Below are positions 16,077-64,000 of a DNA stretch of 64,000 nt, one piece after another. Numbering within the stretch: position 1 is the stretch's first letter; each line of letters opens with the position of its first letter. The DNA is from Desulfatibacillum sp. GTDB lineage: Bacteria > Desulfobacterota > Desulfobacteria > Desulfobacterales > Desulfatibacillaceae. The notes beneath the pieces are model-generated. The model was not told where the DNA came from. It searched no databases and saw only the letters and a program-made list of their open reading frames with translations. The DNA is taken from positions 62,001 to 126,000 of the forward strand of contig JAEINP010000002.1 of NCBI GenBank assembly GCA_016342355.1, written 5' to 3'. The position numbers and the translations under genes were made by a program.

Positions 16077-16802
16077 ATGCCAACAGAATTCAAACCAGGA
16101 TGCGCCCGCCCTACAGGAGGGCCTGTGGGAGAAGGGCCGGCGAAAAACGCCGCACCGAAAACAACCATCCAAGAAAAACCCAGGGAGGCAAGCATGATCA
16201 AGGTGGGGAAAAAGGCCCCGGATTTCACGGCCCCGGCCTATTTGAAGGGAGGATTCGTTTCGGTGCAGTTGTCCGAGTATTTGGGCAAGTGGGTTGTTTT
16301 ATGTTTTTATCCAGGTGATTTCACCTTTGTCTGAGCGACAGAAATCTCGGCGGTCGCCGAGAAGAACGCAGAGTTTGAAAAACTGGGCGTACAGGTCCTT
16401 TCCATGAGTATCGACAGTGTTTTTGTCCATAAAATGTGGAACGACCACGAGCTATCCAAGATGGTGGAAGGGGGCGTGCCCTATCCCATGCTGTCCGATG
16501 CGGGCGGCAAGGTGGGGACCCTTTACGGCATCTATGATGAGGATGCGGGAGTGGAAACCCGCGGCAGGTTTATCATTGACCCGGACGGAGTGGTCCAGGG
16601 CTATGAAGTGCTGACTCCGCCCGTAGGCAGGAATGTCGCCGAGTCACTGCGCCAAATCCAGGCTTTCCAGTTGGTGAGGCAAAGCAAAGGAACGGAGGCC
16701 ACGCCTTCCGGATGGAAACCCGGCAAAACCACCCTCAAGCCCGGACCGGATCTGGTGGGCAAGGTCTGGGAAGTATGGAAAACCTCCATGGCTTTTGATT
16801 GA
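16077..16802 (+). CDS. prxU: selenocysteine-containing peroxiredoxin (PrxU type); in-frame TGA at 16332-16334
   Basis: Read through one TGA, the frame gives 241 residues with Sec at position 86. The core PGDFTFV-U-ATEI matches the Prx motif PxxxTxxC with Sec as the peroxidatic residue. The C-terminal W-x-PG segment ([21 protein letters not shown]) is AhpC/2-Cys-like, but the usual resolving Cys just before it is replaced (EATPSGW). It reduces peroxides in the cytoplasm, with a thiol partner resolving the selenenic acid. Two starts have good sites: ATG 16077 (AGGAGG 16066) and ATG 16194 (GGGAGG 16183). The first adds a Pro/Gly-rich tail with Cys11; the second gives 202 residues with Sec47. Confidence 0.9.
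16332..16362 (+). promoter_or_regulatory. UGA codon with bacterial SECIS hairpin (prxU)
   Basis: After the UGA (16332-16334), TCTCGGC (16345-16351) pairs perfectly with GCCGAGA (16356-16362) around the loop GGTC. The loop begins 17 bases after the UGA and has G at its first two positions. Both fit the known bacterial SECIS rules for SelB binding. Confidence 0.8.
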
Positions 16803-58312: not shown

Positions 58313-58645
58313 TTATTTGAGGGAATCCCAAAAAGCCTTTGCGCTGTCCTGGGCGTTGCGCGTTCCGCCGCCCTGGCTGGGGGGTGTGTCAGGGCGCATT
58401 CCCGTCAGCCGGGCGATCCGTTCTTCCAGCGGAGGATGGGTGGAAAACAGGCTGGCCAGATTCTTGCCGGACAGGGGATTCACGATAAACATATGGGCTG
58501 TGGCGGGCTGGGCGTCCATAGGTATGCGACCGGAATAGGATCCAAGTTTGGCCAGGGCATTGACCAAGCCCCTGGGATTGCCCAAAATTTGAGCGCCTGT
58601 GGCTTCCGCCTTTACAATATGGGCAGGAATTTGGGCAGGCTGCAT
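58313..58645 (-). pseudogene. htpX: 3' remnant of an HtpX-type M48 protease gene
   Basis: The 110-residue frame reads [20 protein letters not shown] and [22 protein letters not shown], the typical C-terminal end of HtpX. The HEXXH zinc site and membrane helices are missing. The left edge of the homology coincides with the end of the DUF35 gene (stop near 58612), so a rearrangement has joined the two. It cannot encode an active protease. Confidence 0.7.
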
Positions 58646-59019
58646 TCTTCCGAGACATCATCCCAAGCCACCTGCACCGGCATCTCGCATGCCAATGATT
58701 CATGGGGGCATCCAATAATGTTCGTGAGTATCATGGGCCCCTCATCTAATTGCACGATGGCAACCACATAGGGCAACTTCGCCGCAAATGCGGGATGAAA
58801 AGCCTGATGGTAAATGGCGTAGCTGTAAACGGTTCCCTTGCCGACGGATTCGATCCACTCCGCATCCCGGCAATGGCATTGCGGGCAAAGAATGCTGGGC
58901 GGCCACCTTACGTCGCCGCATTCCGCGCATTTCTGGAACATCAACTGATGATTGCGGCATGCATCCCAAAAGGGTTTGCTGTCGGCATCCGGCGTGGGCG
59001 TTAGTTGATCATAAGACAT
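58612..59019 (-). CDS. DUF35 zinc-ribbon/OB-fold protein, partner of thiolase-like enzyme
   Basis: 135 residues. A rubredoxin-like zinc ribbon has CAECGD and CPQCHC, followed by an OB-fold ([31 protein letters not shown]). DUF35 proteins bind acyl-CoA and form complexes with SCP-2/Ltp-type thiolase-like partners, as in BbsA with BbsB and ChsH2 with Ltp2. The partner gene here ends five bases upstream. The C-terminus ([14 protein letters not shown]) is complete despite the htpX remnant that follows. Confidence 0.88.
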
Positions 59020-59024
59020 GATGG

Positions 59025-60188
59025 CTACCCTTTCCTGAAGATATAACAGGCATTAGATTGGAGTATCCCGCCGTTATCGCTGCAGAGAATGATTTCCGGT
59101 TCCTTGGTGTTGGTTTTCGGCCCCAATTGCCTGTCTCCACATTGGCCCCTGAGCTGCATGACCGCCTCGGACATGGGGGTCAGGCCCATGTAGTAGGCCT
59201 CGGAAAGCTGGCCGCCCGATGTATTTAGCGGCATGCGGCCTCCAGGCTCAATGGTTCCGCCCTTGAACCAGTCCTCTCCTTCACCGCGCCCGAAAAACCC
59301 GTAGTCCTGCATGGTGAGTTCCACGGTATAGGTAAAGCAGTCGTAAATCTGGCAGGCGTCCACATCCCCGACGCCGATTCCAGCCATTTGAAACGCCGCC
59401 TCCCCCGCCTTTTTCGCGCCGGTGGGTCCGGCCATGTATTTGGCTTGGCCGATTTCATTGGACGGATTATGATGCCCCATGCCTGCAATCAGCACGGGCG
59501 GTTGTTTTAAGTCCCGGGCTCTTTCTGCGGTGGTTATAATGATCGCGCGTCCGCCGTCGTTGATCAGGCAGTTGTCAAAAAGGCGAAGGGGTTCCACCAC
59601 CATGGGCGCGTTGTAATAATCCTCTTCGCTCATGGCCTTTTTGTGCATCATGGCCGCCGGATTCAGGTTGGCCCATTTGCGCTGACCCATGGCGATATGC
59701 TTCCATGTTTCCGGGCCCGTGGAAAACTCGTGCATGCCTCTCATGGCGGCCAGGGCGTACCCGCCCACAGCCCCAAAATGCCCGAACGCCGCTTCATTGC
59801 CCGTCAATTGGAGCAACATCTGATACATCCCGCCGCCCCACAGGGCGCTATGCCCGTAGGTGATGACCACGTATTTGCAGATTCCCGCTTCAAGCACGCC
59901 AACTGCGTGCTGTAAATGAAACCGCGATCAGTTGGCGTCCTGGCTGGCGTAACTGGGCGTCAGACCGAGATACTGAGAGATTGTCTGGGGCGTCAGATTT
60001 GGTTCGCCCGGGCAAGGGGGAAAATGGCGGTAGGAAATCAGGCCGTCAATATCCTCTTTCTTCAGACCGGCGTCCTGTATGGCATTTGCAACAGCCTCCT
60101 GGTGAAAGCTGACAGAGGTCCGTTCCGGAACCTTTCCCTGGGGCGTATAGCCCACTCCCACCACGGCGTACTTGTCTTTCAAATCCAT
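59025..60188 (-). CDS. SCP-2/Ltp-type thiolase-like protein interrupted by one in-frame TGA (candidate selenoprotein)
   Basis: Reading through TGA at 59930-59928 gives 387 residues, the normal family length, with position 87 undefined. No other stop or frameshift is present. ATG 60188 has GGAGGA upstream. The N-terminus (VVGVGYTPQGKVPERTS) and C-terminus (NTSGGQLSEAYYMGLTP and VMQLRGQCG) are typical of thiolase-like partners of DUF35. The UGA context, SQDAN-U-SRFHLQHAVGVLEAG, lies in the nucleophile-loop region, where thiolases have Cys near residue 85-90. A GHP motif is absent. Sec is possible because prxU shows Sec use and a SECIS-like hairpin follows. A nonsense mutation is the alternative. 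Start-to-stop without TGA reading would leave two fragments, 59928-60188 and 59025-59897. Confidence 0.65.
59889..59930 (-). promoter_or_regulatory. UGA codon with SECIS-like hairpin in the thiolase-like gene
   Basis: On the - strand, AGCACGC (59911-59905) pairs perfectly with GCGTGCT (59899-59893) around the loop AGTTG. UUCA (59920-59917) and UGAA (59892-59889) extend it below a five-base bulge. The loop starts 23 bases after the UGA and has G at position 2, within known bacterial SECIS limits. Confidence 0.45.
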
Positions 60189-60310
60189 GCGAAGTCCTCC
60201 CTGTTTTCCCAAAAAACCAGGACATTGCCAATTTTTTAAATATTAATCCTTCCGCATTCAGCAGGTCAAGGCAGGGCAATAAAACGATATGATGAGATCG
60301 TTAGAAATCA

Positions 60311-60362: not shown

Positions 60363-61133
60363 CTACTCGCCGATGAACACGGGCGGGCGTTTTTCCAGGA
60401 ATGCCGTAAAACCCTCCACGCTGTCCTTGGTGTCTTTCACTACGGCGCTTCCCTCTGTTTCTGTGGCCAAACCTTTTTCAATGCCTTCGTAGGCGCCTGC
60501 GGACATGGCCCGCAACACCATTTTCACGGCCACGGGAGCACGTTGGGCGAGAACTCCGGCAAAGGCCAGGGTTTCTTCCATGAGCTTTTCCGGGGCGCAA
60601 ATTTGGTTGACCAGGCCGATCTCCAAGGCCTGTTTTGCGTCCAGACGCTTGGAAAACAAAATCATGTCCAGGGCCTTTGCCTCGCCCACCACCCTTGCCA
60701 GGCGTTGGGTGCCGCCCCATCCTGGAATAATGCCCAGGTTGAGTTCAGTCAGGCCGATTTTCGCCTTGAGGCTATCCGCCATAATGCGGAAATGGCAGCA
60801 CAGGGCCAGTTCCAGGCCTCCGCCCAGGGTGTGGCCGTTAATAGCGGCGATCACGGGTTTTTCAAACCGATCCAGGCGTGTCCATAGAGTCCGGGCCATG
60901 GGGCTGGTTGTAGGCAGGTTGGCCGCATCCGACACATCCATGCCAGCGGAAAAGCATTTATCGCCCGCGCCGGTTAGCACCACCACCCGCACGTCCTTGT
61001 CCTGGTCCGCTTCGTCCACGGCGGCCTTGAAATCCAAGACCGTAGCCAGGTTCCAGGCATTGGCCGGGGGATGATTGATGGTGAGTATGGCGATGTGATC
61101 TTTTTTCTCGTAAATGATATTATCCAGCTTCAC
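60363..61133 (-). CDS. enoyl-CoA hydratase/isomerase (crotonase family)
   Basis: 256 residues. The oxyanion-hole region AGDKCFSAGMDVSDAA and NGHTLGGGLELALCCHFRI are clear. Catalytic Glu candidates are E108 (GGGLELA) and E130 (GLTELNLGIIPGWGGTQRL), both present. It hydrates trans-2-enoyl-CoA to 3-hydroxyacyl-CoA in the cytoplasm. The upstream acyl-CoA dehydrogenase gene ends 11 bases before its start, so the two steps follow each other in one operon. No 3-hydroxyacyl-CoA dehydrogenase gene is in the window. Confidence 0.93.
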   Translation of the reverse strand: MKLDNIIYEKKDHIAILTINHPPANAWNLATVLDFKAAVDEADQDKDVRVVVLTGAGDKCFSAGMDVSDAANLPTTSPMARTLWTRLDRFEKPVIAAINGHTLGGGLELALCCHFRIMADSLKAKIGLTELNLGIIPGWGGTQRLARVVGEAKALDMILFSKRLDAKQALEIGLVNQICAPEKLMEETLAFAGVLAQRAPVAVKMVLRAMSAGAYEGIEKGLATETEGSAVVKDTKDSVEGFTAFLEKRPPVFIGE

Positions 61134-61144
61134 AATTCTCTCCT

Positions 61145-62308
61145 TTACCGGTTGGCCTTACGAAATCCCAGTTGATCCATGGCAATGATCATCTTGCAGA
61201 TGTTGGCCGAGCCTTCCACCAGCACATAGGTGGGGATGTCGCGGTAATACCGGGCCATGGGATATTCGGTGGAGTATCCGTAAGCCCCCATGAGGCGCAT
61301 GCCGAAATTGGCGCATTTCATGGCGGTTTCCCCGGCGAAATACTTGGCCTGGGCCACTTCAAGCCCGTTATTTTCCATGCCCTGGTCCTTCTGCCAGGAG
61401 GCTTTATAAACCAGAAGGCGGGCCGCCTCCACTTCCGTGACCATTTGGGCGATCATGTCCTGATTCATCTGGAAATTGCCCACGGCCTGACCGAACTGAA
61501 CCCGTTGGGTGCAATATTTTGTGGCGATGTCCAGGCAGGCCTGGGCGCTGCCCAAAGCGCCTGCGGCGGCGGACAGGCGGGTGTTGGCCAGGGACGAGAA
61601 CACGATCCTGGTTCCGTCGCCGGGTTTGCCCAAAAGGTTTTCCTTGGGCACACGGGTGTTGTCGAAAAAGAGTTCGCCGGTGGGCGAGGAATGGGAGCCC
61701 ATCTTGTTGATGTCCGTGGTTTTAATGCCGTTAAAATTCTTGGGCTCCACCACAAACGCGGAAAGGCCCTTGGATTTGGCGGCTTTATCGGTGTAGGCGT
61801 AAATAACAATTGCGTCCGCCTGATGGGCGTTGGAAATCCAGGTTTTGGAGCCGTTCAGAACATAGTGGTCGCCTTCTTCCCGGGCTTCGGTTTCAATAGC
61901 CATGACGTCGGATCCGGCGTTGGGCTCGGTGATGCCGAAGCCGCCCAGGTATTCGGCCTTGCACAGCTTTTCCACGTATTTTTTCTTGGCCTCTTCAGTG
62001 CCGTATTTGTAGATGGGATAGGCGCAGCCAAGGCCGATAAGATTAACCTGCACCCGCAGGGAACTGGAAGCCCGGGCGATTTCTTCAGTGATGATGGAGG
62101 CGGCCAGCCAGCCCATGCCTTCCCCACCGTATTCCTCGGGAATGACAGCCCCGAAAAAGCCCAGCTCGCCCATGGGTTTCAGAACCTCCTTGATGGGCAG
62201 GTAATGGTCGGCGTCCCATTGGTCCGCATTGGGAGCGATATTCTTGGTGGCGAATTCCCGGACAGCCTTTTGGAGCATCTTGTGCTCCCTGGACAGTTCA
62301 AAAAACAT
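61145..62308 (-). CDS. acyl-CoA dehydrogenase, glutaryl-CoA dehydrogenase-like
   Basis: 387 residues from ATG 62308 (GGGAG upstream); the longer frame to 62344 lacks a site. FAD-binding landmarks are GGFGITEPNAGSDVMAIET and KTWISNA; the catalytic Glu is E365 in VLVEGSANI. The tail ANICKMIIAMDQLGFRKANR and GAYGYSTEYPMARYYRD follow the pattern of deltaproteobacterial glutaryl-CoA dehydrogenases, which may or may not decarboxylate. Electrons would pass to electron-transfer flavoprotein. It precedes the hydratase gene and follows the thiolase gene by 40 bases. Confidence 0.9.
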   Translation of the reverse strand: MFFELSREHKMLQKAVREFATKNIAPNADQWDADHYLPIKEVLKPMGELGFFGAVIPEEYGGEGMGWLAASIITEEIARASSSLRVQVNLIGLGCAYPIYKYGTEEAKKKYVEKLCKAEYLGGFGITEPNAGSDVMAIETEAREEGDHYVLNGSKTWISNAHQADAIVIYAYTDKAAKSKGLSAFVVEPKNFNGIKTTDINKMGSHSSPTGELFFDNTRVPKENLLGKPGDGTRIVFSSLANTRLSAAAGALGSAQACLDIATKYCTQRVQFGQAVGNFQMNQDMIAQMVTEVEAARLLVYKASWQKDQGMENNGLEVAQAKYFAGETAMKCANFGMRLMGAYGYSTEYPMARYYRDIPTYVLVEGSANICKMIIAMDQLGFRKANR

Positions 62309-62348
62309 GGCGTATCTCCCTAATGCCGGGGAAACCCCGGCCACAAAA

Positions 62349-63542
62349 TTATTTTTGGGTGGTCAAATTTTCCCAGATGATGGTATAGCCCTGCCCTCTT
62401 CCCACACACATGGTGCACAGGCCGTATTTGGCCTGGGGATTTTCCCGGAACTGGGCCGCCATAAAGGCCACCAGACGCGGGCCGGAGGCTGCCAGGGGGT
62501 GGCCGAAAGCCAAAGCCCCGCCCCAGGGATTCACCCGGGGGTCATCCCATTGCACGCCCAGGCGGTCCAGGCAATACATGGCCTGGACAGCGAAAGCCTC
62601 GTTGATTTCCACAATATCAATATCCGCCATGGAAAGTCCGGCCTTTTTAAGAGCCTTTTCAGTAGCGGGAACAGGGGCGATGCCCATGACCCGAGGGTCC
62701 ACGGCAGCCACGGCTGAAGACACAAAGCGCATGACCGGATTCAGGCCCATGTCCCAGGCCTTGTCCGCTTCCATAAGCAGCACGGCGGAAGCGCCGTCGT
62801 TGAGGCCCGAGGCGTTGCCCGGGGTAACCCGGCCGTTTTCCCGGAAAGGAGTTTTCAGAGTGGCAAGGCCTTCCATGGTGGTGGACGGCCTGGGGGCTTG
62901 GTCCGTATCTATGAGAATTTTACCGCCATCCTGGTCCCGGGATTCCACAGGAATGATCATGCTTTTCATTTTTCCCGCTTCAATGGCTTTGGCGGCCCTT
63001 GCCTGGCAATGCACGGCGTAGGCGTCGGCCATTTCCTTGGTGAACTCGGGAAAACGGTCGTGGATGTTTTCGGCGGTCTGGCCCATGTTAAAGGCGCTAT
63101 CGTCTCCCATGACCTCTGCGGCCCGGGGATGGGGGTCCCGCATGAATCCCATGGGCAGGTGGCCCATGTGTTCCACGCCCCCGGCCACCAGGCAGTCGTT
63201 CATGCCGCTGGCGATAAGCGCAACAGCGAAGCCCACGGCGGTGAGGCCGCTGGCGCACATGCGGTCCACGCTGCAGCCGGGCACGTCCCAGCCCCAACCA
63301 GCCAGCATGGAAATCATACGGCCTATGGTGCCGCCCTGCTCTTTCATCTGGTTGGTGACGCCCCAGACCACGTCTTCAACGAGTCCGGGTTCCACGGGGG
63401 AATTCCGTTTTATAAGAGCCTGCAACAGGGGCACGCACAAGTCTTCGGAGCGGGTATTCCAGAATATGCCTTTTTCCCCCGCCCTTCCAAAGGCGGTGCG
63501 CACGGCGTCCACCACAACGACATCATACATTTTCTTACCCAT
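62349..63542 (-). CDS. acetyl-CoA acetyltransferase (thiolase)
   Basis: 397 residues from ATG 63542; the frame extends to 63599 only within the upstream gene. All active-site features of a degradative or biosynthetic thiolase are present: Cys96 in VDRMCASGL, INEAFAVQ, the His in ALAFGHPLAASG and the final Cys in LCTMCVGRGQG. It cleaves 3-ketoacyl-CoA to acetyl-CoA, or condenses two acetyl-CoA. The start overlaps the stop of the preceding thiolase (TAATG). Compare the neighbouring TGA-containing thiolase-like gene, which lacks the GHP motif. Confidence 0.94.
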   Translation of the reverse strand: MGKKMYDVVVVDAVRTAFGRAGEKGIFWNTRSEDLCVPLLQALIKRNSPVEPGLVEDVVWGVTNQMKEQGGTIGRMISMLAGWGWDVPGCSVDRMCASGLTAVGFAVALIASGMNDCLVAGGVEHMGHLPMGFMRDPHPRAAEVMGDDSAFNMGQTAENIHDRFPEFTKEMADAYAVHCQARAAKAIEAGKMKSMIIPVESRDQDGGKILIDTDQAPRPSTTMEGLATLKTPFRENGRVTPGNASGLNDGASAVLLMEADKAWDMGLNPVMRFVSSAVAAVDPRVMGIAPVPATEKALKKAGLSMADIDIVEINEAFAVQAMYCLDRLGVQWDDPRVNPWGGALAFGHPLAASGPRLVAFMAAQFRENPQAKYGLCTMCVGRGQGYTIIWENLTTQK

Positions 63543-64000
63543 TAGGATTTCCTTTCCAGGACTGCGGCAATTCCCAGGCCGCCACCGCCGCAAATGCATT
63601 CCAGGGCCATTTTGGCGTTCCTGCGACGCATTTCATAAACCAGGGAAACAAGGACTCGCACGCCGGTGCAGGCGATGGGATGTCCCAGGGAGATGCCCGA
63701 TCCGTTTACGTTGATCTTGCCGTAATCATTTTCCCCAATACCCATGTCTTTCAAATCTGCCAGAACCTGGGCGGCGAAGGCTTCCTGGATTTCGATCAGT
63801 TCCATGTCTTCCATGACCACGCCCGCCTTGGCAAGGGCCTTGCGGGCCGCCGCGCCCACGGTGAGGTAGGTGCGTGTGGGGTCGGCCCCGGCCACGGCCA
63901 CGGATTTTACATAGGCCAGGATTTCCAGGCCAAGTTCCTTGGCTTTATCGGCGCTCATGACCACCACGGCGGCGGCGCCGTCGTTTTCTGTGGAGGAATT
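63542..64000 (-). CDS. acetyl-CoA acetyltransferase (thiolase), 3' part (gene runs off the right edge)
   Basis: The last 152 codons of a second thiolase, beginning in STENDGAAAVVVMSADK. The substrate-loop motif IQEAFAAQ, the His in ISLGHPIACTG and the final Cys in LECICGGGGLG are present, so it is the active C-terminal half. Its stop overlaps the ATG of the next thiolase, so both are co-translated. Two adjacent different thiolases may act on different chain lengths. Confidence 0.92.
   Translation of the reverse strand, partial: NSSTENDGAAAVVVMSADKAKELGLEILAYVKSVAVAGADPTRTYLTVGAAARKALAKAGVVMEDMELIEIQEAFAAQVLADLKDMGIGENDYGKINVNGSGISLGHPIACTGVRVLVSLVYEMRRRNAKMALECICGGGGLGIAAVLERKS

Follow-up and report, generated by a model that had tools for sequence, protein, structure and literature searches.

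The window, i.e., the whole stretch of 64,000 nucleotides that was analyzed, carries on its reverse strand a gene for a thiolase-like protein followed almost immediately by one for a DUF35 partner subunit (Table 1). Conventionally read, the first of these is broken into two open frames in the same register (59928-60212 and 59025-59897), as the initial annotation had described. With TGA taken as selenocysteine (Sec) these become one uninterrupted frame of 387 amino acids in which the sole TGA is codon 87, and in the host genome this is the only stop within the match to the protein. The C-terminal half of the product corresponds to PF22691 (Thiolase_C_1, E = 1e-39), and a sequence-based profile match to PDB entries spans residues 3-386, indicating a thiolase fold over the full length. 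An AlphaFold model built from six sequences had a mean pLDDT of 41.6 and was of too low a quality to be used. The adjacent gene encodes zf-ChsH2 and OB_ChsH2_C domains, i.e., a zinc ribbon (CxxC-x10-CxxC) and an OB fold, bearing out the earlier proposal that a thiolase-like product lies beside its DUF35 partner. We also considered two compensating frameshifts around the UGA, giving DRGFIYSTQ in the other frame. This was rejected, since the annotated frame persists across the homologues (QDANUSRSHLQHAVG / QEANCARSHLLHA).

Table 1. Features of the locus, in window coordinates
Feature	Position	Strand	Basis and remarks
DUF35 / ChsH2-type partner subunit gene	58612..59019	-	PF12172, PF01796; 5 bases after the stop codon of the thiolase-like gene
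Putative Sec-containing thiolase-like gene	59025..60188	-	387 aa with UGA read through; PF22691, 43 full-family homologues
Tyr332 (SEAY)	59193..59195	-	Invariant; at the thiolase GHP His position, corresponds to Ltp2 catalytic Tyr344
YDCF motif (Tyr282-Asp283-Cys284-Phe285)	59334..59345	-	Invariant; matches the Y/C catalytic pair in Sal-type aldolases
Bacterial SECIS hairpin AGCACGC[AGUUG]GCGUGCU	59893..59911	-	7 bp, 5-nt loop; conservation, MFE
Arg89, motif [U/C]-x-R	59922..59924	-	Invariant in all aligned members
In-frame UGA, codon 87, predicted to be read as Sec	59928..59930	-	TGA in 30 genomes, TGC/TGT in 13
Enoyl-CoA hydratase, upstream	60363..61133	-	PF00378; context in host genome only
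Acyl-CoA dehydrogenase, upstream	61145..62344	-	PF00441/PF02770/PF02771; context in host genome only
Canonical thiolase, upstream	62349..63599	-	PF00108/PF02803; context in host genome only

The β-oxidation genes that lie upstream in the window are a feature of the host genome alone. Apart from DUF35, no neighbor was found to be conserved among 20 neighborhoods, and the same-strand genes vary from locus to locus, including two-component kinases, a racemase, an acyl-CoA dehydrogenase, and a hopene cyclase. A DUF35 homologue is present downstream in 43/43 members of the family, directly so except in one frameshifted copy (L077, see below). DUF35 is the only conserved neighbor, and therefore the thiolase-like gene and its partner travel as a two-gene unit. 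Downstream of DUF35 in the window is a short reverse-strand frame (58313-58645) that we take to resemble the C-terminus of an M48-type peptidase whose N-terminal part seems to be missing.

The initial annotation had supposed that a selenoprotein would be marked by Cys at the codon-87 column of homologues and by other genomes sharing the UGA, and both were found. Among 43 full-family homologues, counted after removal of one duplicate (L009 and L057 lie on one and the same contig), codon 87 is TGA in 30, all from distinct genomes and thus in 29 besides the host, and a Cys codon (TGC or TGT) in the 13 others; no other codon occurs. Such recurrence of the UGA greatly exceeds chance. The individual searches gave a uniform picture. 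A sample of 389 genomes of the class contained 15 close homologues (host included), each with exactly one TGA, always at codon 87, and the order sample, searched with a profile, yielded these 15 again. A sample of the phylum supplied 24 further members with TGA or Cys codons, and a scan of GTDB contigs gave one homologue with TGA at codon 87 and four with Cys there, 59%-60% identical. Five further members came from the Desulfurella-type phylum, all with Cys at this column. No relative of the protein was seen in the viral contigs searched.

The two forms of the protein are close relatives, the nearest Cys member being 77% identical to the window protein. In a tree calculated with column 87 blanked, three changes of state between Sec and Cys are needed, and two Cys lineages (L056, and L062 with L063) are nested inside the Sec clade on well-supported (starred) branches. 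One bacterial family contains both forms, 77%-80% identical to the window protein: L056 (genome G403) has Cys, and L054 and L055 (G660 and G578) have Sec.

Is the gene functional beyond the UGA? For Sec members at least 78% identical, the median dN/dS is 0.07 before the UGA and 0.10 after it, showing purifying selection on both sides. The earlier concern that the gene could simply be dead is refuted by this ratio of about 0.1 downstream. A GTG start 30 nt downstream and the frameshift, real or from assembly, in L077 would suit a gene that is dead or split in two, with the UGA a normal stop codon or an error of sequencing. That account is contradicted by the presence of UGA at the same codon in 30 independent assemblies with Cys elsewhere, by the selection downstream, and by the conserved SECIS hairpin and complete Sec machinery described below, and we give it almost no credence. 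L077 itself (genome G651) is a Sec-form copy with a frameshift at about residue 221 and its UGA and SECIS intact, the result of either an assembly error or recent decay.

Directly after the UGA, all the Sec genes have the sequence AGCACGC[AGUUG]GCGYGCU or a near variant of it. The initial annotation had reported a hairpin with a G in its apical loop starting 23 bases downstream. The G is confirmed, at position 2 of the loop AGUUG; it is this loop that lies 23 nt after the UGA, and the stem begins at 16 nt. Published criteria for bacterial SECIS elements call for a loop of 3-9 nt, a stem of 4-16 bp, G in the first two loop positions, a spacing of 16-37 nt, and MFE ≤ -7.5 (PMC13188914). The window hairpin agrees with all four published constraints, with a 5-nt loop, 7 bp, G at position 2, a spacing of 23 nt, and an MFE of -10.8 kcal/mol for the bare hairpin.

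Conservation of such a hairpin might reflect the protein sequence, and we therefore compared the pairing with a synonymous null, in which codons were redrawn from each gene's own usage in 1000 group draws. The Sec genes form on average 6.27 of the 7 pairs vs 4.97 ± 0.15 expected, and 0/1000 draws reached 6.27. The corresponding values for the Cys genes are 3.54 and 3.19 ± 0.26. Within the gene, the offset of +19 is the best of 1130 for a hairpin of this kind. The loop codons of the Sec genes are also unusual: Ala95 is GCA in 63% (17% overall), Val96 is GTT in 67% (20% overall), and Gly97 is GGC in 100% (41% overall). In the Sec genes the hairpin is conserved to a degree that synonymous codon choice does not explain; the Cys genes lack it.

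The host has the means to insert Sec. The tRNA-Sec with anticodon UCA, SelA, SelB, and SelD are all present, i.e., the components whose absence the initial annotation had held fatal to its proposal. SelB scored over the cut-off in every Sec-form genome but one, which is 71% complete. It was not found over the cut-off in three Cys-form genomes of the Hippea/Campylobacterota/Desulfurella group; ten other Cys-form genomes have SelB, and so the Cys form is not confined to hosts unable to make Sec. The UGA could in principle be read as another amino acid, such as Trp, Arg, or Gly, by a suppressor or a changed genetic code. No support for such a reading was found; Cys is the sole replacement in the 13 + 5 homologues, the host possesses SelA/B/D and tRNA-Sec(UCA), and the SECIS is conserved, making this alternative extremely improbable. 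The host selD gene (L106, contig C40, 14689-15612) has one in-frame TGA, and probably encodes a Sec-containing SelD.

The proposal of a candidate selenoprotein is thus upheld by the 30 UGA and 13 Cys codons, the SECIS, the machinery, and purifying selection, and we consider the presence of Sec at codon 87 to be as good as certain. Decoding would be by SelB and tRNA-Sec, helped by the SECIS hairpin starting 16 nt downstream. The sequence evidence strongly supports the predicted readthrough of the UGA, the pairing of Sec and Cys forms, the SECIS, the presence of the decoding machinery, and the association with the partner.

The family has the UGA, bSECIS, and Sec/Cys pairs typical of the 119 known prokaryotic selenoprotein families; unlike these, it belongs to the thiolase superfamily, of which there is no member in the list (PMC13188914, Table 1), and this May 2026 inventory includes no thiolase or acyltransferase. 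There is no mention of a Sec thiolase in deep-Sep (PMC12013277), a 2022 review, or the Sargasso Sea survey, nor in the main text of the marine Deltaproteobacteria study. NCBIfam of June 2026 contains no selenoprotein model matching the protein. A literature search combining selenocysteine with thiolase or acyltransferase returned nothing relevant, and an earlier prediction without a name may exist in a GenBank record or a supplement. The conclusion that emerges is that this is almost certainly a new selenoprotein family, predicted to be a DUF35-partnered SCP2/Ltp-type thiolase superfamily enzyme of sulfate-reducer-type bacteria.

We then asked where codon 87 falls in relation to the active site. 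With hhalign, the family profile was aligned to thiolase paralogues of the host genome and a genus sister. Codon 87 is opposite their nucleophile Cys (QDANUSR / QEANCAR against VENACAS), and a gap of two residues comes next. When an HMM of 29 members was compared with PDB sequences, codon 87 fell on the Cys of two archaeal thiolases (6esq and 7yvy). The earlier suggestion that codon 87 occupies the place of the thiolase catalytic Cys is therefore supported by profile alignment with both SCP2-type and archaeal thiolases, and very probably it does fall on the nucleophile column. After residue 87 the helix lacks two residues compared with that of canonical thiolases, and U-x-R stands in place of the small CxSG-type loop.

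The residues that are invariant in the family are residue 87 (U/C), Arg89, Cys104, Cys279, Tyr282, Asp283, Cys284, and Tyr332. The aligned nucleophile column, which is Cys in the SCP2-type thiolases, holds Sec or Cys in all members. The His of HDCF and that of GHP, characteristic of thiolytic SCP2-type enzymes, are absent, with the invariant Tyr282 and Tyr332 in their place. The catalytic Tyr of YDxF/Y and the second acid of the Ltp2/Sal aldolases are matched by the invariant Tyr282, Cys284, and Tyr332; the lack of a nucleophile Cys that marks those aldolases is not shared, the family having only Sec or Cys. Thus a thiolase nucleophile is combined with aldolase tyrosines, a hybrid active site by sequence.

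The best solved relative over the full length is an uncharacterized bacterial thiolase (PDB 4u4e, profile E = 1e-79), with an Ltp/SCP2-type fold and a YD-x-F motif; it has a Gly-Gly-Ser-Ser loop around the nucleophile column in place of Sec/Cys, and no UGA. The nearest solved relatives of known function are the aldolases TcLtp2 and CtSal. These enzymes of steroid side-chain cleavage, Ltp2 (6ok1) and Sal (9myr), have the thiolase fold and DUF35 partners (ChsH2 and Shy), and share the catalytic Tyr of YDHF/YDCY, the equivalent of Tyr344 (Ltp2), and the Cys of YDC (Sal). They differ in having no nucleophile Cys or Sec (Gly in CtSal) and in acting in steroid side-chain pathways, no genes of which were seen around the Sec thiolase-like family. 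In the archaeal acetoacetyl-CoA thiolase (6esq) and the SCP2 thiolases (6hsj) the nucleophile Cys aligns with Sec87, and the archaeal complex contains DUF35; however, these are only remotely identical, use Cys not Sec, and have the catalytic His of GHP where the Sec family has Tyr332. Benzoylsuccinyl-CoA thiolase BbsAB (7pxp) is likewise an anaerobic thiolase with a DUF35 subunit, but the similarity to BbsA and BbsB is remote, with scores far under the NCBIfam cut-offs (73.6 vs 750 bits and 36.6 vs 250 bits).

What might Sec87 do? We think it likely to be a covalent nucleophile in acyl-CoA C-C chemistry. In the cleavage or formation of a C-C bond it would react with a CoA-thioester substrate to give an acyl-selenoester. 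Tyr282, Cys284, and Tyr332 would serve as acid/base groups, and the DUF35 subunit would complete the complex. In thiolases the His of GHP activates the nucleophile, and a selenol is largely ionized at neutral pH. Since this His is replaced by Tyr332, a selenol that is ionized without help may make the reaction efficient, and the absence of a His to activate the nucleophile may be the reason for Sec. Tyr332 is also found in the Cys members, and the reaction therefore does not require Sec.

The similarity to the aldolases suggests a different role. A true selenoprotein could catalyze aldol or retro-aldol cleavage of the Ltp2/Sal type, with Sec87 as a general acid/base or substrate-positioning group and not a covalent nucleophile. 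The closest functional relatives of solved structure (6ok1 and 9myr) are aldolases, and YDCF and the Ltp2-type Tyr332 are invariant. Equivalents of the YDCF residues have been mutated in CtSal, where Cys304 of the YDCY motif exemplifies acid/base use of a thiol in the same fold (PMC12329534). However, the nucleophile position of CtSal is occupied by Gly (PMC12329534), whereas the Sec family has only Sec or Cys there, and we consider this role possible but rather unlikely. Most selenoproteins are redox proteins (PMC13188914), and with Cys104, Cys279, and Cys284 all invariant Sec87 might instead have a redox or regulatory function, e.g., as a selenenylsulfide switch with a nearby Cys (Cys104 or Cys284). 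Yet there is no CxxU or UxxC motif, residue 87 is on the nucleophile column, and the fold and DUF35 partner are typical of enzymes acting on C-C bonds of acyl-CoAs; this we regard as improbable. Covalent nucleophilic catalysis by Sec87 is thus the reading we favor, and on that basis the protein would probably be the first selenoenzyme of the thiolase superfamily, with Sec as a non-redox covalent nucleophile in an active site that has features of both thiolases (the nucleophile) and aldolases (the Tyr pair).

Almost all selenoproteins known so far are believed to act in redox chemistry, and what makes the cost of selenium worthwhile to an organism is an open question. If our proposal is true it would be a metabolic, non-redox use of Sec in the making or breaking of acyl-CoA C-C bonds. 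Sec at the nucleophile column, together with natural Cys versions that are 77% identical, provides a ready pair with which the contribution of selenium to non-redox nucleophilic catalysis can be tested. The annotation is also corrected, for standard gene calling would split or truncate the gene in every Sec-form genome.

The window contains a second probable selenoprotein. A forward-strand peroxiredoxin-like frame (16194-16800) has a TGA at 16332-16334, in a context resembling the T-x-x-U of known Sec peroxiredoxins, and the Sec peroxiredoxin noted in the initial annotation appears to be real.
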